64,000 nt of DNA from Planctomycetota bacterium (GTDB lineage Bacteria > Planctomycetota > Phycisphaerae > Phycisphaerales > UBA5793). The position numbers were made by a program, and so were the translations under genes. This document shows, one piece after another, positions 10,201-62,677 of this stretch. Location of the stretch: assembly GCA_013112555.1 (NCBI GenBank), contig JABFGK010000001.1, forward strand, positions 1,958,581 through 2,022,580, read 5' to 3'. The stretch's first letter is position 1, and the number at the start of each line of letters is the position of its first letter. The notes below the pieces were generated by a model. The model saw only the letters and a program-made list of their open reading frames with translations, did no database searches and had not been told where the DNA came from.

Positions 10201-10376
10201 CACACCTATTCGCCATCTGATGATGAAAACGAGTCTGGTTACCGGGCGTCGGGCTGCTTCACGATGCTAAACCGATGCCGCACTTGGGACAAACCGTGCA
10301 ACAGCAATCCCAACTGGGGAATACAATGCCTGCCGTGCCGGTGATATCCACAGATCACGAGATGGGAGCGAGTCTG

Positions 10377-12020
10377 ATGAAGTATGTGCCAGCGTCCGTC
10401 ACCAATCCCTCAGCCGCCGTGTCATTGGTGGCTGCAGCACTCGGTCTAGCCACCCTGGCCGGCCCGGCCCTTGCCCAGAGTCAGGAGGAACAGCGGTACG
10501 TTCTCGATCGCGTCTACTTTGACGAGCCCCGCCCCGACGGGACGCTGACCGGCGGCGTCACACAGATCCTCGTCCCGGCCGATCGCTCACTCCTGCCCAC
10601 CTATCCGGCTGAATCCGAACTCGTCTGGCCCAGTGGTGACCCGGCCAACCGCATCGACCTCGTCTTTGTCGGGGACGGCTACACCGCCGACGAAATGACG
10701 TTGTATGCCGATGAAGTCGACGTGCTCGCGCTCGAGTACTTCAACGAGGAACCTTTTATCACCTACGCACCGTACTACAACGTCCATCGTGTCGATGTCA
10801 TCTCGGCAGAGTCCGGCGTTGACAACGACCCGACCTTCGGGATCTACAGGAACACCGCACTCGATATGGAATTCTGGTGCGGCGGGACTGAACGCCTGCT
10901 CTGTGTCAATGTCAGCAAGGCTTACTCCTACGCCAACAACGCGCCCGACGTTGACCTCGTTGCGGCAATCGCAAACTCTTCGAAGTACGGCGGCGGCGGC
11001 TACAGCGGCTCCGATCTCGGCACGACCTCCTCACGCAACGCCCTCTCCACCGAAGTCATCCTCCACGAGTTCGGGCACGCACTCGGCAACCTGGCCGATG
11101 AATACGATTACGACGGCGGCACTTATTACAACGGGTGGGAACCCTCAGAGCCGAATGTCTCGACGCTGATCGAGAGTGAGATGGCCCAGCAGGGCAAGAA
11201 ATGGGCAGCGTGGCTCGGCGAGAACGACCCGCTCTATGACGGCCTCGTGTCAACCTACGAGGGGGCCAAGTACTACCAGTACGGCATCTACCGACCCACG
11301 TACAACTCGATGATGCGCAGTCTCAACCGACCCTTCAATCTGCCTTCCATCGAGGCGATCCTCATCGAAATGTACAAGGTCATCGACCCCATTGACGACT
11401 CCGCCGACACCAATATCACCTACAACGGCACTGAAACAGTCTGGGTCCTCCCGATGCAGCCCATCGGGCATTCGCTCGACATTCAGTGGTTCCTCAATGA
11501 TGAGCCGATCCCTGGTGCCACCGGGACCGACCTTGATCTGTCCACGCTGGACTTCTCGCCCGGACAGCATCTGGTCCACGCACTCGTCGTCGACAATACC
11601 TGGTGGGTCCGCGATGAATCGGCCCGAAATCAGTACATGTCACGTACCCGCGCTTTTCATGTCGAAACCCCGACGTGTCTCGATCTGCGCGTTGACAATC
11701 TGGTCGCCGATCAGGATGCCGTCTTTACCGTCGCAGAAGGAATACCGGGGCGCGAAGTAGCCATCCTCTGGAGCAGGACTTCAGGCAATCACGCGATCAA
11801 CAAGGGCAACTGGTGTGCTCAGTTTCAACTGAATTTGCCGACTGGGCTCGAAACGACCCGCCTCGTTGCCCTGGGCACATTTGACAATGCCGGCCAATTC
11901 TCAGCGATTGCGCACGTCCCGGCCTCGGCCCAGGGTGTGGGGGTCCATTTCCAGGCAGCGATGGCCGATACCTGCCCGGACTCATGCATGTCGAACGTGT
12001 GGCAAGGCGTGGTCGAGTAG
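10377..12020 (+). CDS. Secreted M64-family (IgA peptidase-like) zinc metalloprotease
   Basis: 547-residue exported protease. A signal peptide covers residues 1-33 (hydrophobic core VSLVAAALGLATLAGPALA, cleavage after ALA). The N-terminal M64 region has NRIDLVFVGDGYTADEM, and the zinc site is HEFGHALGNLADEY with His230, Glu231 and His234. The C-terminal part (about 430-547) contains a beta-rich, cysteine-containing module that also ends the proteins at 15446, 42286 and 58433. The start at ATG 10377 follows GGGAG with good spacing. The upstream in-frame ATGs would bury the signal peptide. It probably degrades extracellular protein or peptidoglycan-linked peptide, but the substrate is unknown. 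Confidence 0.88.
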   Translation: MKYVPASVTNPSAAVSLVAAALGLATLAGPALAQSQEEQRYVLDRVYFDEPRPDGTLTGGVTQILVPADRSLLPTYPAESELVWPSGDPANRIDLVFVGDGYTADEMTLYADEVDVLALEYFNEEPFITYAPYYNVHRVDVISAESGVDNDPTFGIYRNTALDMEFWCGGTERLLCVNVSKAYSYANNAPDVDLVAAIANSSKYGGGGYSGSDLGTTSSRNALSTEVILHEFGHALGNLADEYDYDGGTYYNGWEPSEPNVSTLIESEMAQQGKKWAAWLGENDPLYDGLVSTYEGAKYYQYGIYRPTYNSMMRSLNRPFNLPSIEAILIEMYKVIDPIDDSADTNITYNGTETVWVLPMQPIGHSLDIQWFLNDEPIPGATGTDLDLSTLDFSPGQHLVHALVVDNTWWVRDESARNQYMSRTRAFHVETPTCLDLRVDNLVADQDAVFTVAEGIPGREVAILWSRTSGNHAINKGNWCAQFQLNLPTGLETTRLVALGTFDNAGQFSAIAHVPASAQGVGVHFQAAMADTCPDSCMSNVWQGVVE

Positions 12021-15445: not shown

Positions 15446-16976
15446 TCAGTTGATCTGGGCCGTCACTTCGTTGCTGGTCGCCTGGAACATGCCGGCATGA
15501 ATCCAGATGACTCTCGGCGTCTTCACATTCGGGATCCGAGTGGTCCAGTGAGCATCACCGTTGCTGTCAGTCACACCGGTCAGCCCCTCTTTGCAGCGAT
15601 CCAGGTTCAGCGTCACATCGAGGTTGGCCACATAGCAGTTGCCCGTGCCGAACACGCTGTAGTACACGGCCACGCTTGAGTTCGGGGCCCCGGCACTGAT
15701 GTCAAAATCAGCATTCTGGCCGGCAAACAGCGGGCTCACATCGAGCCGGAAGTCATACGCCTCCTCGAGACAGTTGCGAGAATCGCGATGGCGGGTGATG
15801 CTGTTGATTGCCTGCGTGCCGAAGTAGTCCAGGTGCCGCCCACACCCACCCAGCGATGGGCACATGATGTAGCACGAGCTGCCGCTGCAGTGGCCGGCAC
15901 TCCAGTTGTGACCCAACTCGTGAGCGGTCAGGCCGGCTCGCTGATACATGCTCGACGAGAAGCGAGATTCCGAAAGCCCATACCCGGTCGAGCCGCTGCA
16001 AATGACGCTCAGGTATGCAATGCCGATGACGCTGCCGGACAGGTTCCTGCCGGTCATCATGTGGGCAATGTCACGCTGCACGCCACGCTGATTGTTGTTC
16101 CACTCGTTTCTGAACTGGGTCAACAGGCCCTCGGGATCACTCGTCGTATACGGGTCGTTCGAACTGCTGCGCACGATGATTTCGGTGATCTCATACACCA
16201 CGTCCACATCGGCATCGTAGATCGCATCAACGTCATTCAGAACGGCCTCGATGTCAGCCACCGTATTCGGGACTGAGTTGCCGTTCTTGCCATAGAACTC
16301 GTAGTCTGCATCGAAAGCGATTTCGCAGAGCATGTTGGGGTCTGCTGTCGGGTCCTGGTATGAGTCGCCGATGTTCGAGGCGAGATGCGGGTCAGCAAAC
16401 TCGCCCTCGCCACCCATGGCAAAGTCATCGTTCCCGCAACGCCAATCACCCTCGACCACGTTTTCTGCGGTGTACACGACGTGCAGGTCCGGCGCTGCCT
16501 CAGGATCAACCTTGCTCAACGGCTCAACAAAGATCATCTGACCGTCGGCCATCCGAATCTGTGCCTGAATCCCGCCGGGAACCAGTGACACTGCGGCCTG
16601 CGAGCCCTGGTGATCCAGGACCAACCCGCGATACGTCTGAGGGGCAGGAACCTCGACCTCGCGCAACTTGCCATCCTCACCCTGCACGCGGACCCGGAAG
16701 TCCGGCGAGCGGAGCGAATGCTGACGCAGCACGAGCAAATAGTCGTCGCCTGCATAATCAAATGCTGCCACCATATCTGCGCCGACGTCCATCGGCAGGT
16801 CAACAACGGTCAACTCGGCGTCGTACAGGTTCATCGCCGACAAAAGACTCTCGTCCACCTGGCCGAGACCGGGGGGTCTGCGCCAGTGAGCCGGTCGCCG
16901 TCGCAGCCACCAGGCCGGCTGCGGCGGCCCACACCAGCCCCTTCGATTCCCGACGTTGCAAGTTCTTAGTAGTCAT
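15446..16976 (-). CDS. Secreted reprolysin-like (M12B) zinc metalloprotease, frameshifted near the signal peptide
   Basis: The main frame (from about 16858) encodes a prodomain-like N-terminal region, then a metallopeptidase domain with zinc motif HELGHNWSAGHC (15900s) followed by a CYIMCPS segment, then a C-terminal beta-rich module. Upstream in another frame, ATG 16976 begins MTTKNLQRRESKG and then a hydrophobic AAAAGLVAATATGSLAQ, a typical signal peptide. Deleting one base from the six-G run on the plus strand (about 16871-16876) joins both into one 509-residue exported protease. I therefore treat the gene as whole, with a probable homopolymer error. The C-terminal module resembles those at 10377, 42286 and 58433. 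Confidence 0.83.
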
Positions 16977-41792: not shown

Positions 41793-42285
41793 CACAGTTG
41801 GCAGTGTGCAAGGAAGCCGACTCTCAGAGCACCCAGTGTGCATCATCTGTGTTCGGCCTCTCGGTGTACTCTGAGATACGAATAGTTCGAGATTGAATCC
41901 GTGTTGTGAGGGATTGGCCTTGGAGACGTGCCCGTACTTGGGGTATGTTCGACGGCTGCAAGTCCCTGGTTCGGACCTCGCTACGTGTGACTCGCAGTCT
42001 CCAATGCGTGCATGAAGCGCCTGCACTCATCAAGTATGGGCCTGGTACGTGCGCTGGCTCGCCCAACTGATCGATGAACATCTGACTTGACATGCCTGAT
42101 GCATCGTGCCCCTGCGGTGGGAGCGCATACTGCTTTGTATGCGCCGACGCATCGTGCACTACTGGATCAGACACCCAACAGAGCGCCGCCAACAGATGCG
42201 CGCAGGGTGTCCTGCGCGCCGGACTGAGTACTGCACCCAAGCACATGCACATGCCCACGCACAAACAACCGGAAAGGGAACCAGC

Positions 42286-43230
42286 ATGATCCGAACAAAA
42301 GTAACAACGCTGTCTATGGCCGCGCTCATCGCAGGGGTCACTCAGATGGCGTCCGCCGCGGACGTCACATTCCACCTCAATAGTACCGAGCGTGTGCCAG
42401 AGCAAGGGTGGCTCCGGATCTACGGTACAATTGACTGTCAGATTCAGGATCCACCCCTCTATGACGACTGGGTCTACCACTGCGAGCCGGTTACTGTCGA
42501 AATCCCTGATTGGGCCAACGACGTCCTTGTCAAGTTCGATTGGGACTGGTGGTGCCAGAATCAGGATGACACGAAGGAAGCCTCACCAAACTGGAATGGC
42601 ACCCAATGGGAACTCGAGATTATCCAGGACTGGATTGATCGCAATGCACCCTGGCCGTTTGATATCCCGGTGATCGGCGATCCGACCGGCCAGTTCCGGC
42701 ACATCTACGACATCTGCGATCTGCCGGTCTGGCTGGACAGCGGTGCCGAGATCTACGACGAATACTTCATACTCGATGGCACTTCACCGGAACTCCCCGG
42801 GTACATCGTCGGCCTGACTCCAATTCAGTTCGACCCGACTGCCGACTATCCCTTCTGGACTGACACGCCCATGACAGGCATGCTGTTTCGCCATGCCACG
42901 ATCACTTTCACGCCAACCAACTTCGATCGGCTTCGTCTGGAAGTCACCGGCCAGTGTCCCGGGGTCATGGAGGCCTGTGCATACAATGCCAACTCCGGCG
43001 ACCAGATCATCATCATCTACGGCTTTGCACCCGGCTCAGCCGGCCCGGTCCCCGGCTGCCCCGGCCTCTATGTCGACATTGCGAACCCAACCGTCGCTGC
43101 CATCGGACTGGCTGATGCCAGCGGCACCTATTGCACCAGCGGCTATGTCCCCGCAGGTGCCTGCGGCAGAACACTCGTCCAAGCAATCAACCGCACCACC
43201 TGTGAGGTCTCGCCCGTTGTTGGCATCTAG
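42286..43230 (+). CDS. Secreted protein of unknown function with shared C-terminal module
   Basis: 314 residues with a clear signal peptide (MIRTKVTTLSMAALIAGVTQMASAAD, cleavage after ASA). The body is beta-rich and Trp-rich (VKFDWDWWCQNQDD), and a PEP-CTERM-like anchor is absent. The last about 75 residues (CPGLYVDIANPTVAAIG...TTCEVSPVVGI) resemble the terminal modules of the proteins at 10377, 15446 and 58433: a cysteine near the start, an ADASGT turn, a VPAGA strand and a final VS/SN-V strand. AAGGGA precedes ATG 42286. Function unknown. Confidence 0.72.
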   Translation: MIRTKVTTLSMAALIAGVTQMASAADVTFHLNSTERVPEQGWLRIYGTIDCQIQDPPLYDDWVYHCEPVTVEIPDWANDVLVKFDWDWWCQNQDDTKEASPNWNGTQWELEIIQDWIDRNAPWPFDIPVIGDPTGQFRHIYDICDLPVWLDSGAEIYDEYFILDGTSPELPGYIVGLTPIQFDPTADYPFWTDTPMTGMLFRHATITFTPTNFDRLRLEVTGQCPGVMEACAYNANSGDQIIIIYGFAPGSAGPVPGCPGLYVDIANPTVAAIGLADASGTYCTSGYVPAGACGRTLVQAINRTTCEVSPVVGI

Positions 43231-50034: not shown

Positions 50035-50931
50035 ATGACCACTCCTTCGCCTGCACCACCGAGTCACCCGCACCCTGGGAGGGTGCTGCGCGATCGCTTT
50101 GCGAACCAGCCTGATCGGATCGTGATGGCCCCCGGTGCCCACAACGCGCTCGTCGCTCGGGCCGTCGCACAGGCAGGCTTCGAAGCGTGCTATATTTCCG
50201 GTGGTGCCACGGCCAACGTGGCCGGCTATCCCGATATCGGATTGATTACGCTGAGCGAAATGTGCCGCACGATTCGCGAAACGACCCAGGCCGGCCGCTT
50301 GCCGACCATTGTCGATGCCGACACCGGCTATGGTGAGGTTGAGTCTGTGATCCGGACGGTCGTCGAGTATGACCGCCACGGCGCAGCAGGCTGCCATATT
50401 GAGGACCAGGTGTTTCCGAAGCGGTGCGGACACCTCGATGGCAAGACGCTGATCTCAACCGAAGCGATGTGCGACAAGATCGCTGCGGCCGCATCCAACC
50501 GGCCGAATCCTGATTTCATCATTGTGGCACGGACCGATGCGAACAGCGTGGACGGGTTTGAGGCTGCTGTGGAACGGGCCAATGCCTATCGTGCTGCCGG
50601 CGCTGACATGATCTTTCCGGAGGGATTGACGGGTGAGGAGCAGTTCGGCGAAATGGCTCAGCGCTCGCCGGGCCTGTTGCTTGCCAATATGACCGAGTTC
50701 GGCAAGACGCCGTATATTAATGCCGACCGATTCGGCGAACTTGGGTATTCGATCGTCATCTTCCCGTTGAGCATGGTGCGCCTGGCAATGGGTCACATCT
50801 CACGGTGTCTCGATATTCTACGATCCGAAGGATCTGTCGAGCCGTTTCTTGATCAGATGCAGACCCGCGCTGAACTGTACAGTTTGCTCGATTACACGCC
50901 CGGTCAGCAGTGGGATTACCCGGCGACTTGA
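50035..50931 (+). CDS. prpB: Methylisocitrate lyase
   Basis: 298-residue isocitrate lyase/PEP mutase-superfamily lyase splitting methylisocitrate to succinate and pyruvate. The sequence has IVDADTGYGE, the catalytic PKRCGH (Cys131; usually KKCGH), IIVARTDAN, and the C-terminal FPLSMVRLA. ATG 50035 has GAGG 6 nt upstream. ATG 50020 is five codons earlier with poorer spacing. A 1.1-kb repeat island separates it from prpC. Confidence 0.93.
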   Translation: MTTPSPAPPSHPHPGRVLRDRFANQPDRIVMAPGAHNALVARAVAQAGFEACYISGGATANVAGYPDIGLITLSEMCRTIRETTQAGRLPTIVDADTGYGEVESVIRTVVEYDRHGAAGCHIEDQVFPKRCGHLDGKTLISTEAMCDKIAAAASNRPNPDFIIVARTDANSVDGFEAAVERANAYRAAGADMIFPEGLTGEEQFGEMAQRSPGLLLANMTEFGKTPYINADRFGELGYSIVIFPLSMVRLAMGHISRCLDILRSEGSVEPFLDQMQTRAELYSLLDYTPGQQWDYPAT

Positions 50932-52069
50932 TGTGTTGCCGGCGGGGATACGTCGCAGACCCTACGGCCCATCTTTCCGGTGCTGCCATCCCTCACCGCG
51001 AAGCGGTGATCGTGGCGCACTCCGACAAGCCGCGACCGTGACGGAGCGGGCTCTTCTCCTCCAACGCCCGTCAGCGCACGAACGCAGCCGGCGGCTTCAG
51101 CCGCCGGACAGGGACGCGCCACGAGCGTCACACCGCCCGGAGGGCGGATGAAGTGTAACAAAGGATTTGTATCCATCCACAACGGGGCACGACGCATCGT
51201 GCCCCTACGGCCATCATCCCGGCGTTGGCTGGATCCCTCACCGCGAAGCGGTGATCGTGGCGCACTCCGACAAGCCGCGCGAGTGAGCCCCCGGCTCTGC
51301 CGGGGGGATGATGATCATGCGCACGCATCATGCCATGCCTCCTCACTCGTCATTCCCGCGCACGCGGGAATCCATCCTCTCTCCACTCCCTCGCCCGTCA
51401 GGGCGCACGAACGTAGCCGGCGGCTTCAGCCGCCGGACAGGGACGCCACGAGCGCACACCGCCCGGAGGGCGGATGAAGTGTAACATAGGATCTGTACCC
51501 ACAACGGGGCACATGCAATGTGCCCCTACGGCCCATCTTTCCGGTGCTGCCATCCCTCGCCGCGAAGCGGTGATCGTGGCGCACTCCGACAAGCCGCGAC
51601 CGTGAGGGAGCGGGCTCTTCTCCTCCAACGCCCGTCAGGGCGCACGAACGTAGCCGGCGGCTTCAGCCGCCGGACAGGGACGCGCCACGAGCGCACACCG
51701 CCCGGAGGGCGGACGAAGTGCGTTCTGTACGATCCTCGCGAGGTAAGCGAGCGGGCCGCTGATGCAGTAGGAATGAATTCCTACTGCCTGATAAGACATG
51801 GGGGGCCGCATCCGCTTACCCCGGTGGGACGCGTCGCAAACCGTGAGCCGAGTCGAAGGGCGTCGCTTATCCCACCCGATGCCCTGGATACCGGCCTGGG
51901 CCGGCATGACGAGGATCCCACAGTGTATGGAAATTGGGGGAAGGACTGATTTGAGTAATTACCCTTGCCGCTATGGCTTGTGCAGTGCTGGTACGATGTC
52001 ATGCCAGCATATCACCGTGTGCGGGCACAGCCTGGAGTCACTGAAAGAACGAAGGAAGCGAGCAGCACC
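50932..52069. repeat. Palindromic repeat island 3: three partial tandem copies of a 190-320 bp unit
   Basis: 1138 nt without a credible gene, between prpB and prpC. A unit starting CTACGGCCCATCTTTCCGG, then CACCGCGAAGCGGTGATCGTGGCGCACTCCGACAAGCCGCG, then CCGGCGGCTTCAGCCGCCGG, then CACCGCCCGGAGGGCGGA, begins near 50962 and 51526. A diverged middle copy spans about 51206-51500. The GGGGCAC palindrome occurs at 51184-51205 and 51506-51526. The ATTCCCGCG-x-CGCGGGAAT element lies near 51352 and GCAGTAGGAAT...ATTCCTACTGC near 51762. Most modules also occur in islands 1 and 2. Confidence 0.8.
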
Positions 52070-53197
52070 ATGAGTACACCGGATAGCACCAGCGGCGAGA
52101 ATCAGATCAAAAAGGGGCTTGCAGGAGCGATCGCTGGCACCACGAGCGTCGCGTCAGTCGAGCAGGGGCAGTTGCTCTATCGAGGGTACGAAATCCACGA
52201 TCTGGCCGAGAATGCCACATTCGAGGATGTCGCCCATGTCTTGCTGGTAGGGCACAAGCCCTCATCTAGCGAGTTGTCGGCGTTTCAAACCGAGTTGCAG
52301 GGCATGCGAGAGGTGCCGGGCTGGATCATCGACGTGATTCAAAGAGTGGCACCCAAGTCCCACCCAATGGACACTTTGCGGACCGGCATCAGTCTGCTGA
52401 GTCACACCGATGAAAAGACGGACGACATTTCTCCGGAAGATGAACTGCGGAAGTCAAAGAAACTGCTGGCATGTATCCCGACGATCATCGGGGCCGGCCA
52501 GCGAGCGATTGACGGCAAAGCGGTTGTCGAACCGGACGGCTCGCTGTCCCATGCGGCCAACCTGCTGTATTGCATGACCGGCGATCGGCCGAGCGACCTC
52601 ATGGCCAAGGTGGTCGATGTGTCGCTGATTCTGTATGCCGAGCACGAGTTCAACGCCTCGACCTTCACCGGCCGCGTGATTGCCGGGACGCTCTCGGACA
52701 TGTATTCTGCCATCTGCGGGGCCATCGGAGCCTTGAAGGGGCCGCTGCACGGCGGGGCGAACGAAGCGGCAATGGACATGCTCAAGGAAGTCGGGACACT
52801 GGACAATGTGCGGCCGTTCATGGACAACGCCTTTGCGACGAAGCGAAAGATCATGGGCTTCGGCCATCGGGTGTACAAGAACGGGGACCATCGAGCCCCG
52901 ATTCTGCATGCCTGGGGTCGCAAAGTGGCTGAGGAGCGACCCGAGTTCAAGAAGTGGTTCGAGATTGGCGAGGCCGTCCAGAAGATCATGAACGACGAGA
53001 AGGGGATCTTCCCGAATGTCGATTTCCCGTGCGGGATGGCGTATTTCGCACTCGGGATCCCGGTGCCGCAGTACACCCCGATTTTCGTGGCATCGCGTAT
53101 CACGGGCTGGTGCGCCCATGTGATGGAACAGCATGCCGACAACAAGTTGATTCGGCCGCTGTCGCAGTATACGGGCGAGCCCAAGCGGGCGTGGTGA
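52070..53197 (+). CDS. prpC: Citrate synthase-family 2-methylcitrate synthase
   Basis: 375-residue type II-like, short citrate synthase. The catalytic residues are the His in PLHGGANEAAMDML, the His in GFGHRVYKNGDHRA, and the Asp in NVDFPCGMAYFALGIP. Citrate synthases of this short bacterial class often act as methylcitrate synthases. The linkage to prpD and prpB supports that here, but pure citrate synthase activity is not excluded. ATG 52070 was chosen because the family starts there. AAGGA is 12 nt upstream. Followed by a strong terminator. Confidence 0.88.
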   Translation: MSTPDSTSGENQIKKGLAGAIAGTTSVASVEQGQLLYRGYEIHDLAENATFEDVAHVLLVGHKPSSSELSAFQTELQGMREVPGWIIDVIQRVAPKSHPMDTLRTGISLLSHTDEKTDDISPEDELRKSKKLLACIPTIIGAGQRAIDGKAVVEPDGSLSHAANLLYCMTGDRPSDLMAKVVDVSLILYAEHEFNASTFTGRVIAGTLSDMYSAICGAIGALKGPLHGGANEAAMDMLKEVGTLDNVRPFMDNAFATKRKIMGFGHRVYKNGDHRAPILHAWGRKVAEERPEFKKWFEIGEAVQKIMNDEKGIFPNVDFPCGMAYFALGIPVPQYTPIFVASRITGWCAHVMEQHADNKLIRPLSQYTGEPKRAW

Positions 53198-53522: not shown

Positions 53523-55937
53523 ATGATTACGAAGTCATCGGTGCGAAGAAGTGAGTCAGGTCCAAGTGCACAGGCGGTTCTGCAGCGTGTGATGCTCGGC
53601 GTTGCTGCGTGCGGGCTGGTATTGGCAACGCTCGGGACTCGTGCCGGTTTCGGGCAAGCCGACACCAGCCCGGCCGAGCGCGACACACCGGCAGACGCAG
53701 CCTTTACCTATCGCGGCCAGCTGTTGCGCCATGGTTTGCCTTTGACCGATCTGGTTGACTTTGAATTCACCCTGTGGGATACGGCTGAGGGGGGGAATCA
53801 GATCGGTGATCCGGTATGGGTAATAGGGCACGCTGTGGTTGACGGCCTGTTTGCGGTGACGCTGGACTTCGGGCCTGATGCGTTCGGGCCGACTGCAAGA
53901 TGGCTTGAGATCACCGTCTTGTCATCGGTGGATCCGGAGCCCGTCACGCTCATCCCGCGTCAACGGATAGCAGCAGCACCGATGGCGTTGTACGCACTGC
54001 GCGCACCGGCAGCTGAGGTGCATGACGACATTGATGCCACCGACGCAGACGGTGCCAGCAGGAATGGCGAGCAACCGGGCTCGGGAGGAAGGGACCAACT
54101 GGGTGATTCAGGTGGCGGCGGCTCCTTTCGGGGTGGGCACGGGAGCGAGGGCATTCGGCAACCCGGCGATGGGGGCTGGGAGGACCCGGCAGCCGGCCCG
54201 TGGCAGGTGAATGGAAACGATATTTATTACGATGCCGGCAATGTGGGAATCGGGACCAGCACGCCGGGCAATCCGCTGCAGGTGGAGAACGCGAATCCGA
54301 ATGGGACGGCCATGGTCGGCTGGGCCCGGAGTTCGGGTTCGAATCTGGGGGTCTATGGGCTCGCCAACGGCGGTGAGGGTACGGGTGTGTTCGGATTGGC
54401 AAAGGCCGAGTCTGTCGGTACGAACTTCGGCGGCCGTTTCGAGAGTCGATCGACGGCAGGGCGGGGTGTGTACGGGATTGCATCTTCGCACACCGGCGGT
54501 CAGAGTTACGGTGGGTGGTTCCAGAGTAACTCGACGCAGGGGCGCGGGATTCAGGGGTATGCCAGCAGCGCGTCAGGGTTGACATATGGCGGCCTCTTTC
54601 AGTCGAATGGCGACGAAGGTCGGGCCGTGTACGGCTATGCGAGCAACACCGGCACGAAGGCAACGTTTGGCGGATACTTCCAGTCCAAGAGCCGCAAGGG
54701 GCGCGGGGTGTTCGGGTATGCCGACGCATCGGTCGGCGTGACCTTCGGCGTCCTGGGTCAGAGCAACAGCACGCGTGGGCGTGGCGTCCAGGGCATCGCG
54801 ACGGCTGACGTCGGCGGCAACTACGGGGTGTACGGTCAGAGTGACAGTGAAGAAGGGTACGGCGTGTATGGATATAACACGAACAGTACCGGCTATACGG
54901 TCGGAGTGTCGGGGCGATCCGACTCGCCTGACGGTTTGGGGGTGACCGGACTTGCATCGGACACCGGATCCGGGATGAACATGGGGGGCAGCTTTCAGAG
55001 TCGAGGATCAGCCGGGCGGGGGGTGATGGGGCTTGCGACGAGTTCGACCGGTTTCACTTCCGGCGTCTATGGACAATCAAATTCGACTACCGGTGCGGGT
55101 GTGCGTGCTTATGCATTCAGCGACTCAGGATCCAACAAGGCGGTGTGGGGATCGACCAATTCCGCTACCGGGTACGCCGCCTACTTTGAAGGCGGGCGGA
55201 ACTACTTCGAGGGGAAGGTCGGGATTGGGACGGAGAATCCGGCATCGGAAGTCACGGTGCTCGGCACGGTCTATGCTGAGGCTGCGGACCGCAACCCCTT
55301 CCAGGCACTGTACGGCGTCACGACCGAGGCGAGCGCGACTGCGGTGCTCGGCTATGCCGGCGGCGGGAATACAGGCACTCGGTACGCCTTGTACGGCTAC
55401 ACGGAATCCGCGTCCGGCGATTATGCCGTGTATGCAGACGGGAATTCCGGTGCGTTCGGCTTCAAGAAGTTCCACATTGATCACCCGGAGGACCCGGCAA
55501 ATCAGTATCTGGATCACTACTCGGCTGAGGGTCCTGAGCCGTATCTGATGTATCGCGGGAACGTGATGCTGGATGCTGACGGCCAGGCATGGGTGAGTCT
55601 GCCGGACTACTTCGAGGCAGTCAATCGCGACTTCCACTATCAACTGACGCCGGTGGGGGCACCGGGGCCTGGTCTGTATGTCGCTGACGAGATTGCCGGG
55701 AACCGGTTCCGGATTGCTGGAGGCACGCCGGGCGGAAAGGTATCGTGGACGGTGACCGGGGTTCGGAATGACCCGTGGGCGCAAACGCATCCAACGCGAG
55801 ATGCCTATCCGAAGCCGGCCGCTGAGCAGGGCACCTATATACGCCCTGAGTTGCACGGACAGCCCGCAGAGCGTGGTCTGTTTGCACGGTTTAAGAGTGA
55901 GCGAGTTCGGAAGGCATCTCTAAGCAATCAAAACTAG
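53523..55937 (+). CDS. Secreted repeat-fibre protein 1
   Basis: 804 residues. A signal peptide with twin-Arg-poor n-region and hydrophobic core VMLGVAACGLVLATLG ends near GFGQA. An N-terminal module follows (FTYRGQLLRHGLPLTDLVDFEFTLWD to PRQRIAAAPMALYALR), common to the three fibres. The central part has the motif GNVGIGTSTP and about ten 26-residue repeats of type xxGRGVxGYAssxxGxTyG-GxFQSNS. The C-terminal module begins FHIDHPEDPANQYL and ends PELHGQPAERGLFARF. ATG 53523 has AGGAAG 10 nt upstream. A second ATG is 27 nt earlier. Likely a cell-surface or matrix fibre. Function unknown. Confidence 0.83.
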   Translation: MITKSSVRRSESGPSAQAVLQRVMLGVAACGLVLATLGTRAGFGQADTSPAERDTPADAAFTYRGQLLRHGLPLTDLVDFEFTLWDTAEGGNQIGDPVWVIGHAVVDGLFAVTLDFGPDAFGPTARWLEITVLSSVDPEPVTLIPRQRIAAAPMALYALRAPAAEVHDDIDATDADGASRNGEQPGSGGRDQLGDSGGGGSFRGGHGSEGIRQPGDGGWEDPAAGPWQVNGNDIYYDAGNVGIGTSTPGNPLQVENANPNGTAMVGWARSSGSNLGVYGLANGGEGTGVFGLAKAESVGTNFGGRFESRSTAGRGVYGIASSHTGGQSYGGWFQSNSTQGRGIQGYASSASGLTYGGLFQSNGDEGRAVYGYASNTGTKATFGGYFQSKSRKGRGVFGYADASVGVTFGVLGQSNSTRGRGVQGIATADVGGNYGVYGQSDSEEGYGVYGYNTNSTGYTVGVSGRSDSPDGLGVTGLASDTGSGMNMGGSFQSRGSAGRGVMGLATSSTGFTSGVYGQSNSTTGAGVRAYAFSDSGSNKAVWGSTNSATGYAAYFEGGRNYFEGKVGIGTENPASEVTVLGTVYAEAADRNPFQALYGVTTEASATAVLGYAGGGNTGTRYALYGYTESASGDYAVYADGNSGAFGFKKFHIDHPEDPANQYLDHYSAEGPEPYLMYRGNVMLDADGQAWVSLPDYFEAVNRDFHYQLTPVGAPGPGLYVADEIAGNRFRIAGGTPGGKVSWTVTGVRNDPWAQTHPTRDAYPKPAAEQGTYIRPELHGQPAERGLFARFKSERVRKASLSNQN

Positions 55938-55977
55938 TACATCATTTACTTGCGCTTCACGCAACGCTTAATCGCCC

Positions 55978-56006
55978 TTGACAACACTGAGTGTCCTCGG
56001 TAGCAA
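55978..56006 (+). promoter_or_regulatory. Candidate promoter of fibre 2 with a dyad in the spacer
   Basis: TTGACA (55978-55983, consensus), 17-nt spacer containing the dyad ACACTGAGTGT, then TAGCAA (56001-56006). It sits between fibres 1 and 2, about 145 nt before ATG 56151. Confidence 0.4.
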
Positions 56007-56150
56007 GAGCCTTCAGGGAACTATCTTCGTTCCCCGCAGGATTTGTCTGCCGCCGGGACTGCGTTCTGTCGTTGGAACCTATGGGCAGGTTGTCTGTCTG
56101 TTCGATATCCTGTGCCCTGGCTGGTACTGACAACTCAAGGAGATATTACG

Positions 56151-58436
56151 ATGTTCTACTCTCATAAAACTGAGGGGTCTCAGCACGGAAGCACAAAGCG
56201 CTCGCAATGGGTACTCGGATTCGTTGCGGCGATTGCCGGCGCCGTTGCAGCAACGTGTGGAGGCAGCTTCTCTGCGGCCGGCGAACAGCTCCAGGAGATG
56301 TCCCGGGACCAACAACCGAATACGTCATTCACCTATCGCGGCCAGTTGCTCCGTCACGGGCTGCCGGTGACTGATTATGTCGATTTCGAAGTCACGTTGT
56401 GGGACGATGCTGAAGACGGGACGATGATCGGGCACCCACAATGGGTCATCGGTCACCCCGTCCTGGATGGCTTGTTTTCGCTCACACTGGATTTCGGCAT
56501 TGAGGCACACACCGCCGCGTCCCAACGATGGATAGAAATCGCCGTTCTGTCATCGCACGATACAGCGCCGGTCACCCTCGTACCGCGACAACGCATTACG
56601 AATTCACCTTCCAGTCCGTTTCCTACGCATCCCGGTGATGATGAACGTGCCTCAGTCTCTCTTGACGGTGCCAGCGCTCCCGATCACAGGGCACCGGATC
56701 AATCGGGCGCAGCACCGCAGGGAGACGATTCGGCGCTGGTTCAAACACACCACACTGTGCGCGGCATGGGTGGCGTGCCCGGCAGCGCCGGAGACGATGA
56801 CCAGCAGGATCCGATGGGCGACCCGCTCTGGAACGAGAGCGGAAGCGATATTTACTTTGATACCGGGAATGTCGGAATTGGAACGAGCACGCCAAGCAAC
56901 CCGTTGCAGGTGGAGAACTCGAATGCCAACGGGACGGCGATCGTCGGTTGGGCACGAAGTTCGGGCGAGAACCTGGGCGTCTACGGTCTGGCCAGTGGTG
57001 GTGAAGGCACCGGCGTGTTCGGTCTGGCAAAATCCGAGTCAAACAACATCACGTATGGCGGACGCTTTGAGAGCAAGTCGAATGTCGGTCGCGGAGTCTA
57101 TGGACTCGCCTCGGCCACATCGACCGATAGCACATACGGCGGTTGGTTCCAGAGCAACTCGTCCAAAGGGCGCGGGGTCCAGGGATATGCCAACAGTACC
57201 ACCGGAAAGACTTACGGCGGCTTGTTTCAGAGTGACAGCGAATCTGGGTACGGTGTGTATGCGTACGCATCGTCAAACAGCGGGACCAACTACGCCCTCT
57301 ATGCCAAGACAAACAGCAACAGCGGCTTTGCCGGGTACTTCACTGGTGGCAAGAGCTACTTCGGAGATGATGTCGGCATCGGAACGACCTCGCCGAGTTA
57401 TCCATTGGACGTCGATTCGGACGAGTTTCGTTCGATCGTGGCAACGACCAGCTCCAATTCGAGCGGTGCGACCGCCATTCGTGGCAAGGCCACGTCGACC
57501 TTAGGAACGACATACGGGCTGTATGGATTGAATAACAGCAAGAAAGGACGGGGCGTCTACGGATACGCGGATTCCGGCTCAGGCACGACGTATGGCGTGT
57601 ACGGTCTCAGCGACAGTGAGGACGGCCGCGGTGTCTATGGTGAAGCAAGCGCTTCCGTCGGTGATACCTTCGGCGTGTATGGTTACAGCGCCAGCACGGT
57701 CGGCATCGGAGTCTATGGGTACGGGGATGCCGACATCGGCCCGGTCTACGGCGTCATGGGCAAAAGCGACAGCGAGAGCGGCCGCGGCGTGTATGGATAC
57801 TGTACCAGCACCAGCGGAGTCACATCCGGGGTCTACGGCATGGTCGAAGGAGGAAGTGCCTACGGCCTCAACGGCTACGCCAAGGCCACCAGCGGCTACA
57901 ACTTCGGGGCCATGGGAATGACTGCCAGCACTCAGGGCACGGGCGTCAAAGGGTACGTCAATGCTTCGAGCGGCACGAACTACGGGGTGTACGGCATCAC
58001 AAACAGCACCAGCGGCTACGACTTCTACGCCGCCGGCGCCGGGGTCGACTACGGGACGACCTCGTCACGCCGTTGGAAGCGTCACATTACACCAATTGAC
58101 GATCCGCTGGCCAAACTCGAGCGGATCCGCGGCGTCTACTTCGACTGGGATGCTGAGCACGGTGGGCATCACGACGTGGGTATGATCGCTGAAGAGGTCG
58201 GCGAGGTCCTGCCTGAGATTGTGAACTACGAGGAAAACGGAATCGATGCCAGTGGCATGGACTACGGCAAAACCACCCCGCTGCTCGTCGAGGCCGTCAA
58301 AGCCCTGCGAGCTGAGAAGGATGCTGAAATTGAGGCTCAGCAACAAGAAATTTCAGACCTCCGGCAGCGAGTAGCCGACCTAGAGACTATGGTTCAACAG
58401 TTGGCGGCGACTTCATCTGAAGGAGGTTCACAATGA
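56151..58436 (+). CDS. Secreted repeat-fibre protein 2 with S74-type intramolecular chaperone
   Basis: 761 residues. A signal peptide (VLGFVAAIAGAVAATCGG) is followed by the shared N-terminal module (FTYRGQLLRHGLPVTDYVDFEVTLWDDAEDG), then 26-residue repeats (NVGIGTSTP, then YGVYGxSxSxxGRGVYG types). The C-terminus is a Peptidase S74-type chaperone: TSSRRWKRHITPIDDPLAKLERIRGVYFDW, with Ser638 and Lys643 in the Ser-x4-Lys spacing of known autoprocessing tail-spike chaperones, and a trailing coiled coil (AEIEAQQQEISDLRQRVADLETMV). This indicates trimerisation and possible autocleavage of a beta-helical or fibrous assembly. AAGGAG lies 8 nt before ATG 56151. It overlaps the next gene by 4 nt. Confidence 0.9.
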   Translation: MFYSHKTEGSQHGSTKRSQWVLGFVAAIAGAVAATCGGSFSAAGEQLQEMSRDQQPNTSFTYRGQLLRHGLPVTDYVDFEVTLWDDAEDGTMIGHPQWVIGHPVLDGLFSLTLDFGIEAHTAASQRWIEIAVLSSHDTAPVTLVPRQRITNSPSSPFPTHPGDDERASVSLDGASAPDHRAPDQSGAAPQGDDSALVQTHHTVRGMGGVPGSAGDDDQQDPMGDPLWNESGSDIYFDTGNVGIGTSTPSNPLQVENSNANGTAIVGWARSSGENLGVYGLASGGEGTGVFGLAKSESNNITYGGRFESKSNVGRGVYGLASATSTDSTYGGWFQSNSSKGRGVQGYANSTTGKTYGGLFQSDSESGYGVYAYASSNSGTNYALYAKTNSNSGFAGYFTGGKSYFGDDVGIGTTSPSYPLDVDSDEFRSIVATTSSNSSGATAIRGKATSTLGTTYGLYGLNNSKKGRGVYGYADSGSGTTYGVYGLSDSEDGRGVYGEASASVGDTFGVYGYSASTVGIGVYGYGDADIGPVYGVMGKSDSESGRGVYGYCTSTSGVTSGVYGMVEGGSAYGLNGYAKATSGYNFGAMGMTASTQGTGVKGYVNASSGTNYGVYGITNSTSGYDFYAAGAGVDYGTTSSRRWKRHITPIDDPLAKLERIRGVYFDWDAEHGGHHDVGMIAEEVGEVLPEIVNYEENGIDASGMDYGKTTPLLVEAVKALRAEKDAEIEAQQQEISDLRQRVADLETMVQQLAATSSEGGSQ

Positions 58437-59044
58437 ACCGAGTTTCGTTGACGCTGTGCACGTTCCTAGCCGCTGGCGCGACCGCCCTGGCCGGGATCAC
58501 GACCGGGACCCCACCAACCGACGGCCCGGCAGACCCAGAAGGCGTCTATCAACTGGGCTGGTCTGAGTTTTCTCCGGGTTCCGAAATGTGGTCTGAAGGC
58601 AGCGGGTATCTGATTGCCGGCGAGGTGGTCTGGTCCGACAGTGCGGTGATGACGGGCGGGTCCTACACCTTGCTGCCCGGATCCGGCACGTTTGCCATGA
58701 GCCCGCCGATCGAGATGTTGACAGGGAATCTCTATCTGCGCTCCCCCACAATGTCTCGTGTCGGTGCCCTGAGCACCTTGCTTGTTCACGGTGCGACGCC
58801 TGGTGATGAGGTTGTCTTTACATGTGACTTTCGCCGTGGGCTGACCGAGCTCAACGGGTGCGTCGGCGTCGCCGTCGAACTCAGCAACCCCCAGATCGTG
58901 GATACCGTGATCACTGACGAGGAAGGGATGGCCCGACTGTCCCTGGTGATCCCGCGTGATGCTGCTGACAAGCCGGTGATCTTCCAGGCGGTCGAGGCAA
59001 ACAGTTGCCGAGTGAGCAATCCGGTGGTGTGTACGTTCAACTGA
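58433..59044 (+). CDS. Small secreted protein coupled to fibre 2
   Basis: 203 residues with a signal peptide (MNRVSLTLCTFLAAGATALAG). The start ATGA overlaps the stop of fibre 2, with AGGAGGT 7 nt upstream, so translation is coupled. The middle (YLIAGEVVWSDSAVMTGGSYTLLPG) is a short beta-rich part. The last about 90 residues (LSTLLVHGATPGDEVVFTCDFRRG...SCRVSNPVVCTFN) match the shared C-terminal module of the two secreted proteases and the 42286 protein. It may be an anchor or cap for the fibre. Confidence 0.82.
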   Translation: MNRVSLTLCTFLAAGATALAGITTGTPPTDGPADPEGVYQLGWSEFSPGSEMWSEGSGYLIAGEVVWSDSAVMTGGSYTLLPGSGTFAMSPPIEMLTGNLYLRSPTMSRVGALSTLLVHGATPGDEVVFTCDFRRGLTELNGCVGVAVELSNPQIVDTVITDEEGMARLSLVIPRDAADKPVIFQAVEANSCRVSNPVVCTFN

Positions 59045-59071
59045 GTTGAGGTCAGGAACACTGGCTCATAC

Positions 59072-59110
59072 CCGGACAATCCTGCATTGCAGGCTTGTCC
59101 GGCTTGTTTT
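59072..59110 (+). terminator. Intrinsic terminator of the fibre 2 operon
   Basis: CCGGACAA-t-CCTGC stem with GCAGG-c-TTGTCCGG, then CTTGTTTT. It resembles the one at 61179 (CCGGACTTG...CAAGTCCGG). Confidence 0.85.
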
Positions 59111-59206
59111 GGGAGTGTGCGAAAAGGGAGTGAGAAAGAGACAACGAGAAACCCCAACGTGATCCCTCCCCGGCATCAACGGGGACGGGAGTCAGGAGAC
59201 TGCCCG

Positions 59207-61177
59207 ATGATGACGACCGAAACGAATGATCGGCATTTTCTTTCTCGGCTTCTACTGCTGACAGCGATCTGCCTGATGTACCGGGGGGAGGTATTCGGGC
59301 AGCAGGTCGTCGAGACGAAGGGAGAAGCCCCGTTTACGTATCGGGGGCAGTTGATGCGGCAAGGGAAGCCGGTGGGCGATCTTGTCGACTTCGAGTTTAC
59401 ATTGTGGGATGCTGCAGAGGGAGGGAGTCAGATCGGTCAGCCGCAATGGGTGATCGGCCAGGCAGTGGTCGAGGGCTTGTTTTCAGTCTCACTCGATTTC
59501 GGTGCGGATTCGTTTATTGGCAATACGACGGAGCGGTGGCTCGAGATTACCGTCCTCTCATCGCTGGACACAGAGCCGGTCACGCTGGTGCCGCGTCAAC
59601 GGATTGCTGTTGCGCCCGTTTGCGCTGTATGCCTTGAAGACGTTGCCCGACGACGGGGCAGGGCGCCGGGATCGGGCACAGCCACCCCGACTGACAGGGG
59701 CCCAGTCGCAGTGACGGGCGATGTTGGGCGTGACGGGCGAAACGGTCGCGATGGCTTGGGCAAGGATGGGGCAAACGGGCACGTTGGGGATACATTCGAG
59801 GATCCAATGGCCAGCCCGTGGCAGGTCAACGGGAGCGACATCTATTACACAACCGGCAATGTCGGGATTGGTACGTCCACGCCACAGAATGATTTGTATG
59901 TTGTGAACCCGACTGCGGCCGACAATGAGATTGCCATGGTCGGATGGGCCAATGGCGCGACCGGACGGACATTCGGCGGGTGGTTCCAGAGTCTGTCATC
60001 ACAGGGCCGCGGGATTCAGGGATATGCCAGCAGCACGACGGGGCTGACATTCGGCGGGCTCTTTCAAAGCGACGGCGATGAGGGCCGTGGTGTGTACGGC
60101 TTTGCCAAGAACACCGGGGACTCAGCCACATATGGCGGGTACTTCCAGGCCAAGAGCACGAAGGGGCGGGGAGTCTTCGGGTATGCTGATTCATCAACAG
60201 GGACAACATTCGGCGTGCTGGGGCAAGCCAGGAGCAGCCGGGGGCGTGGGGTGTATGGGCTGGCCAACTCGACGAGCGGTCTCAATTACGGCGTGTACGG
60301 GCAGAGTAACAGCACCGACGGTGTGGCCGTCATGGGGTGGGCGGATTCTGCTGAGGGGTCTCCGAAGGCAGTGTGGGGGCATACAGAAAACAGTGGTGGA
60401 TTTGCAGGCTATTTCACGGGCGGCAAGACATACTTCGAGAAACGGATCGGCGTGGGGACGACCTCCCCGGCTTATGAGATCGAGGTGGTGGGCACGATCT
60501 TTGCCGAAGCCACCGACGGCGTTTATGAGGCGATCCGTGGAGAGTCCGCAGCAAGCGGAACATATGCCGTGTCCGGTGTTGCGGTCGCTTCATCCGGCAC
60601 GCGATATGGCGGCTGGTTCGGTACGCTCGCTTCCTCCGGCAACTACGCAGTCTACGGCGACGGGAACACTGGCGCATCGGGAGTGAAGGCATTTCATATT
60701 GATCACCCAATGGATCCTGCGAATAAGTTTCTGAATCATTATTCGACGGAGAGTCCTGTGCCGTACCTGACGTATCGCGGGACGGTGGTGCTTGATGGGG
60801 CTGGCGAAGCGTGGGTGGACTTGCCTGACTACTTCGAGGCGATCAATCGAGACTATCACTATCAATTGACGGCCGTCGGGGCGCCGGGACCGAATCTGTA
60901 TATTGCAGACAAGATCAGTGGGAACCGCTTTCGGATTGCGGGCGGGACCCCGGGCGGAGAGGTTTCGTGGACTGTGACGGGTACGCGCGATGACCCGTGG
61001 GTGCGTGCGCACGAAACACCCGATGCATATGACAAGCCGGTTGAGCAGCGCGGGCTGTATATTCGGCCGGAGTTGTACGGCCGACCTCAGAGCGAGGGGA
61101 TTTTTGCGAGGTATAAGGATCGGAGCAAGCGGGCAGCGCAGGAGGGTGAAGCAGATTCGCAGAGGTCGCGGGATTGA
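59207..61177 (+). CDS. Secreted repeat-fibre protein 3 with short collagen-like stretch
   Basis: 656 residues. A hydrophobic N-terminus (FLSRLLLLTAICLMYRGEVFG) precedes the shared N-terminal module (FTYRGQLMRQGKPVGDLVDFEFTLWD). A compensated frame slip appears to cover about 59608-59700: the other frame reads PFALYALKTLPDDG, matching fibre 1, while the annotated frame reads PVCAVCLEDVARRRG. After it comes a Gly-x-y-like stretch (GDVGRDGRNGRDG), then GNVGIGTSTP, about seven 26-residue repeats, and the same C-terminal module as fibre 1 (FHIDHPMDPANKFL...PELYGRPQSEGIFARY). AGGAG precedes ATG 59207. Confidence 0.8.
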   Translation: MMTTETNDRHFLSRLLLLTAICLMYRGEVFGQQVVETKGEAPFTYRGQLMRQGKPVGDLVDFEFTLWDAAEGGSQIGQPQWVIGQAVVEGLFSVSLDFGADSFIGNTTERWLEITVLSSLDTEPVTLVPRQRIAVAPVCAVCLEDVARRRGRAPGSGTATPTDRGPVAVTGDVGRDGRNGRDGLGKDGANGHVGDTFEDPMASPWQVNGSDIYYTTGNVGIGTSTPQNDLYVVNPTAADNEIAMVGWANGATGRTFGGWFQSLSSQGRGIQGYASSTTGLTFGGLFQSDGDEGRGVYGFAKNTGDSATYGGYFQAKSTKGRGVFGYADSSTGTTFGVLGQARSSRGRGVYGLANSTSGLNYGVYGQSNSTDGVAVMGWADSAEGSPKAVWGHTENSGGFAGYFTGGKTYFEKRIGVGTTSPAYEIEVVGTIFAEATDGVYEAIRGESAASGTYAVSGVAVASSGTRYGGWFGTLASSGNYAVYGDGNTGASGVKAFHIDHPMDPANKFLNHYSTESPVPYLTYRGTVVLDGAGEAWVDLPDYFEAINRDYHYQLTAVGAPGPNLYIADKISGNRFRIAGGTPGGEVSWTVTGTRDDPWVRAHETPDAYDKPVEQRGLYIRPELYGRPQSEGIFARYKDRSKRAAQEGEADSQRSRD

Positions 61178-61379: not shown

Positions 61380-62572
61380 CTACGAAGTCATCGCCTGGTC
61401 GATCCAGCCCCCACACATGATGAACTCGTTTTCAGTATGATGTTCGTCGTCGTCAGGCGAGACATAGCAGACCACCGCCTGACCGGGCGCGACGGCCGGC
61501 TGGGGCTCGTCGAACTGCACTTTGATCGCCCGGCGGCTCTCGATGGCACGAACACGAGCAGGCACGGCTTTCGCGTTATAACGAATCTGAGCCCGGCAGC
61601 GAATCCACGTGCCTTGCAGCGCCAGCGTCTGATCAAACCAGTTGCAATCCCGGGCAATACAGCCGGATGCAAGCAGGTCCTCTTTGGAACCGACCCGGAT
61701 GGTATTCGCATCGGGATGGGCTCCGTCACATAGATCGGGTAGCCGAGTGCGACTCCGATCTTTCGACGTTGGCCGATCGTGAAATGCTGATGGCCCGGGT
61801 GCTTCCCGATGACGTTGCCGTCAGCGTCAAGAACATCACCCTCTGCGACCTCATCGGGCGTGCGTCTCTTGACCAGGCCGGCATAGTCATTATCCGGGAC
61901 AAAACAGATTTCCTGCGAGTCCGGCTTGTTTGACACGGGGAGATCAAGGTCGGAAGCGAGTTGTCTGATTTCGGATTTGTTATATGCACCGATGGGAAAG
62001 AGCATGTGTCTGAGTTGCACTTGCGGGATGCCGAAGAGGACGTAACTCTGATCTTTATCGACATCGACGCCGCGGAGCAGAACCGAGCGGTTTTCAATCG
62101 ACCCGGTGCGTGCATAGTGACCGGAGGCGACGGCATCGGCACCCATCTGCTGTGCATACTCGTGCAACTTGCCGAACTTGAGCCAGTCGTTGCAGCGGAT
62201 GCACGGGTTGGGCGTGCGGCCGGCGTTGTACTCGGCAACGAAGTAGTCGATGATGCGGCCGAAATCGCGTTTGAAGTTGCAGACGTAAAACGGGATGCCG
62301 AGTTTGGCAGCCACGAGCCGGGCGTCGGCAGCGTCATTGATCGAGCAGCATCCCTGATGGCCGATTTTGATTTTATCGGTGTCGCAGTCCGTCGTGAGTT
62401 CGTCCAGTTCATCACCGGGTGAGCCGAGCCGCATGAAGCAGCCGATCACCTCGTGCCCTGCCTCGAGCAGGAGAGCAGCAGCGACGGAGGAATCGACCCC
62501 GCCGGACATGGCCAGGAGGACTTTGCGGGGGGGATGGTCGGGGACGGGATGTCGCGCTTCGGAGGAACTCAT
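61380..62572 (-). CDS. mnmA: tRNA-specific 2-thiouridylase MnmA, frameshifted near the C-terminus
   Basis: Thiolates U34 of Lys, Glu and Gln tRNAs. The PP-loop is AMSGGVDSSVAAALL. The catalytic cysteines are in NPCIRCND and SQEICFVPD. The frame stays homologous through GYPIYVTE and then becomes nonsense to 61388. The correct C-terminus (NTIRVGSKEDLLASGC... to CGGWIDQAMTS) is in another frame ending at 61380. Adding one C to the three-C run (complement of 61718-61720) restores a 397-residue protein. As MnmA is highly conserved, a sequencing error is likelier than decay. ATG 62572 is the best start. Confidence 0.88.
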
Positions 62573-62677
62573 CGTCGTTCGATTGTATGGGAGCAGGTAT
62601 CCGATGCGAGGACGCATCGCCACGCGGCAGAGCAGTGGGCTAACCGGGCGGATTGACGGCCATAGGATGTGGGTGCG

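Follow-up and report, generated by a model that had tools for sequence, protein, structure and literature searches.

The 64,000-nucleotide stretch analysed here (the window; positions 1,958,581 to 2,022,580 of contig JABFGK010000001.1, from a planctomycete of the order Phycisphaerales) carries four genes in a row on the same strand (+), three of which encode predicted exported fibre proteins, termed F1, F2 and F3, and one a small predicted secreted protein termed the partner. Open reading frame (ORF) calls place F1 (804 residues) at 53523..55937, F2 (761 residues) at 56151..58436, the partner (203 residues) at 58433..59044 and F3 (656 residues) at 59207..61177; the ATG of F2 at 56151 is preceded by AAGGAGAT, and a longer ORF from a TTG is unnecessary. 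All three fibres begin alike, with a hydrophobic segment followed by a shared N-terminal module (N-module) recognised by our profile A2 at 53703..53996 in F1 (E 6e-29), 56328..56612 in F2 (E 3e-25) and 59333..59623 in F3. Behind it lie 26-residue repeats (F1 residues 241-629, 54243..55409; F2 residues 241-622, 56871..58016; F3 residues 219-475, 59861..60631), for which the autocorrelation at this period was 0.39 in F1, 0.90 in F2 and 0.56 in F3 against a top value of -0.06 from 200 shuffles per fibre. F1 and F3, alone among the three, match profile A1 of an FHIDHP tip (55422..55880, E 1e-70, and 60644..61105, E 1e-72). F2 ends in an S74 intramolecular chaperone domain (58062..58223; PF13884, E 1e-13), with Ser638 and Lys643 in the motif SSRRWK, and a coiled-coil-like heptad tail (58287..58433) identified by eye with I or V at position a and L at d. 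The stop codon of F2 and the start codon of the partner overlap as ATGA (58433..58436), an AAGGAGG lies upstream of the partner start, and the C-terminal part of the partner is a domain of 104 positions (58730..59041; profile A5) that recurs across the genome. This agrees with the preliminary description of the locus, which had reported three paralogous exported repeat proteins with a common N-module and repeats of about 26 residues, two FHIDHP ends and one S74 end with a coiled coil, and a small gene overlapping the S74 fibre gene by 4 nucleotides.

The only Pfam match above cut-off in the four was S74 in F2 (E 1e-12; 48.6 bits against a curated cut-off of 22), an NCBIfam scan of the four gave no match, and Pfam has no dedicated family for either the N-module or FHIDHP. 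We aligned 30 examples of the N-module (five from the genome of the window and 25 others) and compared the resulting profile with one made from ten fetched N-terminal domains of the mosaic adhesive trimer (MAT) proteins, the fibres by which Bdellovibrio recognises its prey. Profile-profile comparison with hhalign gave a probability of 97.5% and an E of 5.4e-12 over 95 columns, the alignment ending in a common P(Y/F)A..A stretch, whereas control comparisons of the FHIDHP profile with the N-module and with the Bdellovibrio domain reached only 0.44% and 0.10%. Used alone, the N-module profile found Bdellovibrio bacteriovorus proteins with a best E of 1.8e-5 and those of Bdellovibrio sp. qaytius weakly (best E 0.0099). 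Among ten ORFs in loci fetched by the Bdellovibrio query it matched five at E of 0.01 or below, directly behind a signal-peptide-like start, and the remaining five fell above that threshold; all seven ORFs in loci fetched by the N-module profile itself also matched, a result which is circular. By these profile comparisons the N-module and the conserved N-terminal domain of the MAT proteins are homologues.

The likeness extends beyond this domain. MAT fibres of B. bacteriovorus, as described in the literature (PMC10769870), also combine a signal peptide, the homologous N-terminal domain and a long stem with VGIG segments, and form a multigene family with a conserved N-terminal end and diverse tips, among which S74 ends occur in some members and other tips elsewhere. 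The system described here differs in belonging to another lineage in which predation is not known, in its tandem clusters, in a translationally coupled partner with the lineage's own C-terminal domain, and in the FHIDHP tip, which was not found in three Bdellovibrio-type genomes.

In the genome of the window the N-module profile found seven genes, three in the window and four on a second contig (at loci L019 to L022), occupying five places in all. Like the MAT proteins these share one conserved beta-rich domain right after the signal peptide and carry diversified ends, three of the seven ending in FHIDHP and four in S74, so that S74 is again confined to a subset. Counting stems, three types of end occur, namely FHIDHP, S74 on a 26-residue stem and S74 on a beta-roll stem; a 15-residue period is seen in the L019 and L022 genes, and the L019 product matches UspA1 and beta-roll repeats. 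These repeats recall the trimeric autotransporter adhesins YadA and UspA1; in the planctomycete proteins, however, the conserved end is N-terminal, and no YadA-type C-terminal membrane anchor was matched by Pfam in the four window proteins, L019 or L021 (the set scanned, of which L020 and L022 were not part). Five genes of the genome score above the curated cut-off of PF13884, four of them with the domain behind an N-module; the fifth (L028, 3378-5123) has phage-fibre-like repeats and a heptad tail without an N-module match.

Comparison of the family members at the DNA level points to exchange of tips. The L020 gene (FHIDHP) and the L021 gene (S74) lie about 60 kb apart and yet share 98-100% identity in each block of 100 columns between about 4218 and 5118 of L020 (about 900 bp), a stretch that comprises upstream DNA, signal peptide and N-module, after which different tips follow. 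Within 4360-5100 the two differ by one substitution and three single-G differences. Identity drops outside the stretch: on the upstream side it is 84% and further out 65%, on the downstream side about 80% for 300 bp and about 49% beyond. Between L021 and L022, identity is 83% across 1,127 bp in the 5' half and 89% across the 593 bp that span the S74 end; F2, for its part, has its longest DNA match in the family with the L019 gene (524 bp of stem at 74%). By these patterns heads and tips travel separately. The near-identical head suggests a recent exchange of tips, for which gene conversion or another recombination of the common 5' half would account, and its presence before different tips suggests that the identity of the tip matters. 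Dispersed repeats of about 90-170 bp surround several of the fibre genes (L020, 3680-3983 and 6760-6866; the flanks of L022) and may serve recombination; a dispersed-repeat stretch in the window at about 50849-51950 was seen from ORF texts only.

Profile searches with the N-module and FHIDHP, the check proposed in the preliminary description, detected both in genomes of the order. In an even sample of 201 genomes of the order, 57 contain the N-module, in up to 18 copies, and 30 contain FHIDHP, all within the 57, while neither occurs in the five genomes of a sister genus of the same family. In no fewer than 14 of the other 56 positive genomes, counted among the matches listed, N-module genes stand on one strand no more than 3 kb apart. 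One genome (G174, locus L071) has four in a row with the ends S74, S74, FHIDHP and FHIDHP and with ATGA overlaps between the first and second and the second and third genes. Protein searches returned 450 FHIDHP relatives (120 of them listed) and 75 N-module relatives, with source names including Anaerolineae, Acidobacteria, Phycisphaerales, Bacteroidota, Armatimonadota and Verrucomicrobiae; the FHIDHP module is widespread. We aligned 23 of 24 selected FHIDHP modules drawn from 128 module-bearing proteins (one was dropped and the first replaced by a longer stretch), as well as 60 of the 79 proteins that bear both N-module and FHIDHP (alignment A3). N-module proteins of relatives also show a further type of end, with L078 (3887-5713) ending in RGADITITYYPSGL and L077 (1750-3582) in RGGDITVMYVPHSL, neither of which has an S74 motif or an FHIDHP match.

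The S74 ends of the family vary at the predicted cleavage site. Where the MAT proteins have SDxxxK, two of the four N-module S74 genes have SDRNRK, F2 has SSRRWK and the L021 gene has CDRNQK. The Ser-Lys spacing typical of Peptidase S74 (PF13884, known from endosialidase and MYRF) is thus kept in the F2, L019 and L022 genes, whereas F2 is without the Asp and cleavage is a prediction throughout; L021 (3899-6385) has a natural Cys at the position of the catalytic Ser. The long repeat stems, an S74 cleavage that could free a part of the protein and the many copies per genome in relatives would all suit structural matrix or biofilm fibres that are released by this cleavage and recognise nothing in particular. 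We regard this as unlikely, as S74 in the systems described takes off the C-terminal chaperone and does not set the fibre free at its N-terminus (PMC3742443 and PMC10769870), and the common head before different tips suggests that the identity of the tip is of consequence.

Structure models bear on the nature of the tip. In the monomer model the repeat block has a predicted local distance difference test score (pLDDT) of about 33-66, with no confident globular fold, while both end modules, including the FHIDHP tip of F3, lie mostly above 90. The predicted FHIDHP core superposes with middling scores on the jelly-roll tips 6CT8, 7EEA and 4MTM, and FHIDHP is predicted to fold like the trimeric receptor-binding tips of phages and pyocins. 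This predicted resemblance to R-pyocin and tailspike tips (PMC6363177) comes with no credible sequence match, and the module differs from them in being attached to a predicted exported bacterial stem instead of a tail.

A rival reading takes the genes to be phage tail fibres, either domesticated or in decay, that play no part of their own at the cell surface. F2 matches phage tail fibres in PHROGs, its S74 domain and stem reaching E 9e-25, and among the aligned FHIDHP relatives 8 of 23 match phrog_17490 (E 1e-10) and 2 of 23 the tail protein family phrog_6616 (E 5e-4); the F3-family model also has a match in a minor tail protein of an Arthrobacter phage (35% identity at E 7e-10). Frame breaks might likewise speak for decay. 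About 15 codons at the end of the F3 N-module are out of frame when set against the database protein P0001, L020 is also broken, and F2 deviates from the family at the same place with no reading frame restoring the match. The break in F3 is however probably due to assembly indels, and the several single-base indels (F3 against P0001, L020 against L021, and mnmA) suggest assembly noise. Against a phage origin of this kind stand the signal-peptide-like starts, the spread of N-module genes over five genome places and over more than a quarter of the sampled genomes of the order, and the neighbourhood, as scans of eight flanking genes against NCBIfam and PHROGs turned up no phage structural family (three of the genes being nameless), in line with the earlier statement that no phage genes are near. 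We therefore consider it very improbable.

Among these eight flanking genes a thiolase, citrate synthase II and mnmA scored above the NCBIfam cut-offs, prpD-like and prpB-like genes below them, and three had no match; in PHROGs mnmA alone had matches, namely auxiliary metabolic families and a family whose function is unknown. The 3' part of mnmA (61388-62623) is out of frame and continues in another frame, probably an assembly indel. The citrate synthase II gene adjoins an FHIDHP fibre gene both here (51965-53197) and at L079 (1444-2607) in a genome from another family of the order, a shared neighbour that reflects either chance or an old gene order.

The partner introduces a domain of its own. 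Searching the protein database with the partner recovered two proteins, itself and a paralogue at L019, which are 57-58% identical, and the S74 fibre gene at L019 likewise overlaps its partner gene by ATGA. No partner-like gene lies behind the L021 and L022 genes within the stretches examined, the sole A5-positive ORF at L022 being a larger protein on the opposite strand. Queried as a single sequence across 121 genomes with up to 26 candidates scored in each, the C-terminal half of the partner was found at 26 or more places in each of the six genomes of its GTDB family and in none of 115 outside it, a restriction that reflects this single-sequence query, the A5 profile having been run on the genome of the window. 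There (4.55 Mb) all 150 scored candidates, of 270 in all, matched the profile, many of the weaker ones only partially. In 30 of 31 proteins no more than 10 residues separate the end of the domain from the stop, and in all 31 no more than 14; many of the proteins that bear it start with a signal-peptide-like segment, and no Pfam or NCBIfam family covers it. It occurs elsewhere in the window (42106-43230, 10275-12020 and 15446-16858) and at L051-L070.

We infer that the domain serves in C-terminal sorting or attachment and that the partner, produced along with the S74 fibre, would be a minimal vehicle for it. As none of the fibre ORFs of the window, L019-L022 or L028 matches the domain, the partner could act as a surface adaptor for fibres that lack it, a tentative proposal and the least certain step of our account. 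Alternatively the partner may have nothing to do with fibre function, the coupling being a gene order inherited from a duplicated pair of S74 fibre and partner genes, to which we give nearly even chances. A single ancestral duplication would explain both pairs, given that the longest DNA match of F2 is the L019 gene, and the match of the domain at 150 genome places also speaks for this reading; yet the 4-nucleotide overlap and the ribosome-binding site were kept in both copies despite the divergence of the partners.

Taken together, the locus is best read as a system of trimeric fibres at the cell surface, with trimer and location predicted from sequence. Of the surface or biofilm fibre system proposed in the preliminary description, the surface fibres have gained backing from the Bdellovibrio homology, and the gene set has proved larger, with seven genes and mosaic ends and with a partner whose C-terminal domain recurs throughout the genome, beyond what the window's letters could reveal. 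It is probable that the three genes encode exported homotrimeric surface fibres with a MAT-homologous N-module and exchangeable C-terminal tips that would bind other cells, glycans or surfaces. The N-module would sit at the cell surface, the repeats would form a three-stranded stem, and FHIDHP would form a lectin-like, jelly-roll trimeric knob; in the alternative end the S74 domain would register three chains, cleave itself off at its serine and leave the last segment of the stem exposed. With recombination of the 5' half that the genes have in common, one unit for expression and anchoring could present different tips. Least certainly, the partner, co-translated with the S74 fibre, would serve as a surface adaptor for fibres without its C-terminal domain. 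More speculatively, a lineage other than Bdellovibrio may practise MAT-type recognition in which tips are exchanged like cassettes by gene conversion of a common head, and S74 fibres are displayed through a co-translated adaptor bearing the lineage's own C-terminal surface-sorting domain, with at least 150 member proteins outside Pfam and NCBIfam.

Exchange of tips would change what the cell sticks to. The authors of the MAT study raised tip swapping only as a possibility and noted that additional tips may be in use in other bacteria (PMC10769870); here the DNA itself points to such an exchange. Through the homology a large body of uncatalogued bacterial repeat proteins, those with the N-module and FHIDHP, is connected with a cell-recognition system that has been characterised, and the use of such fibres by bacteria other than Bdellovibrio becomes testable. 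The undescribed C-terminal domain may be the tag of a route for surface sorting within one bacterial family.
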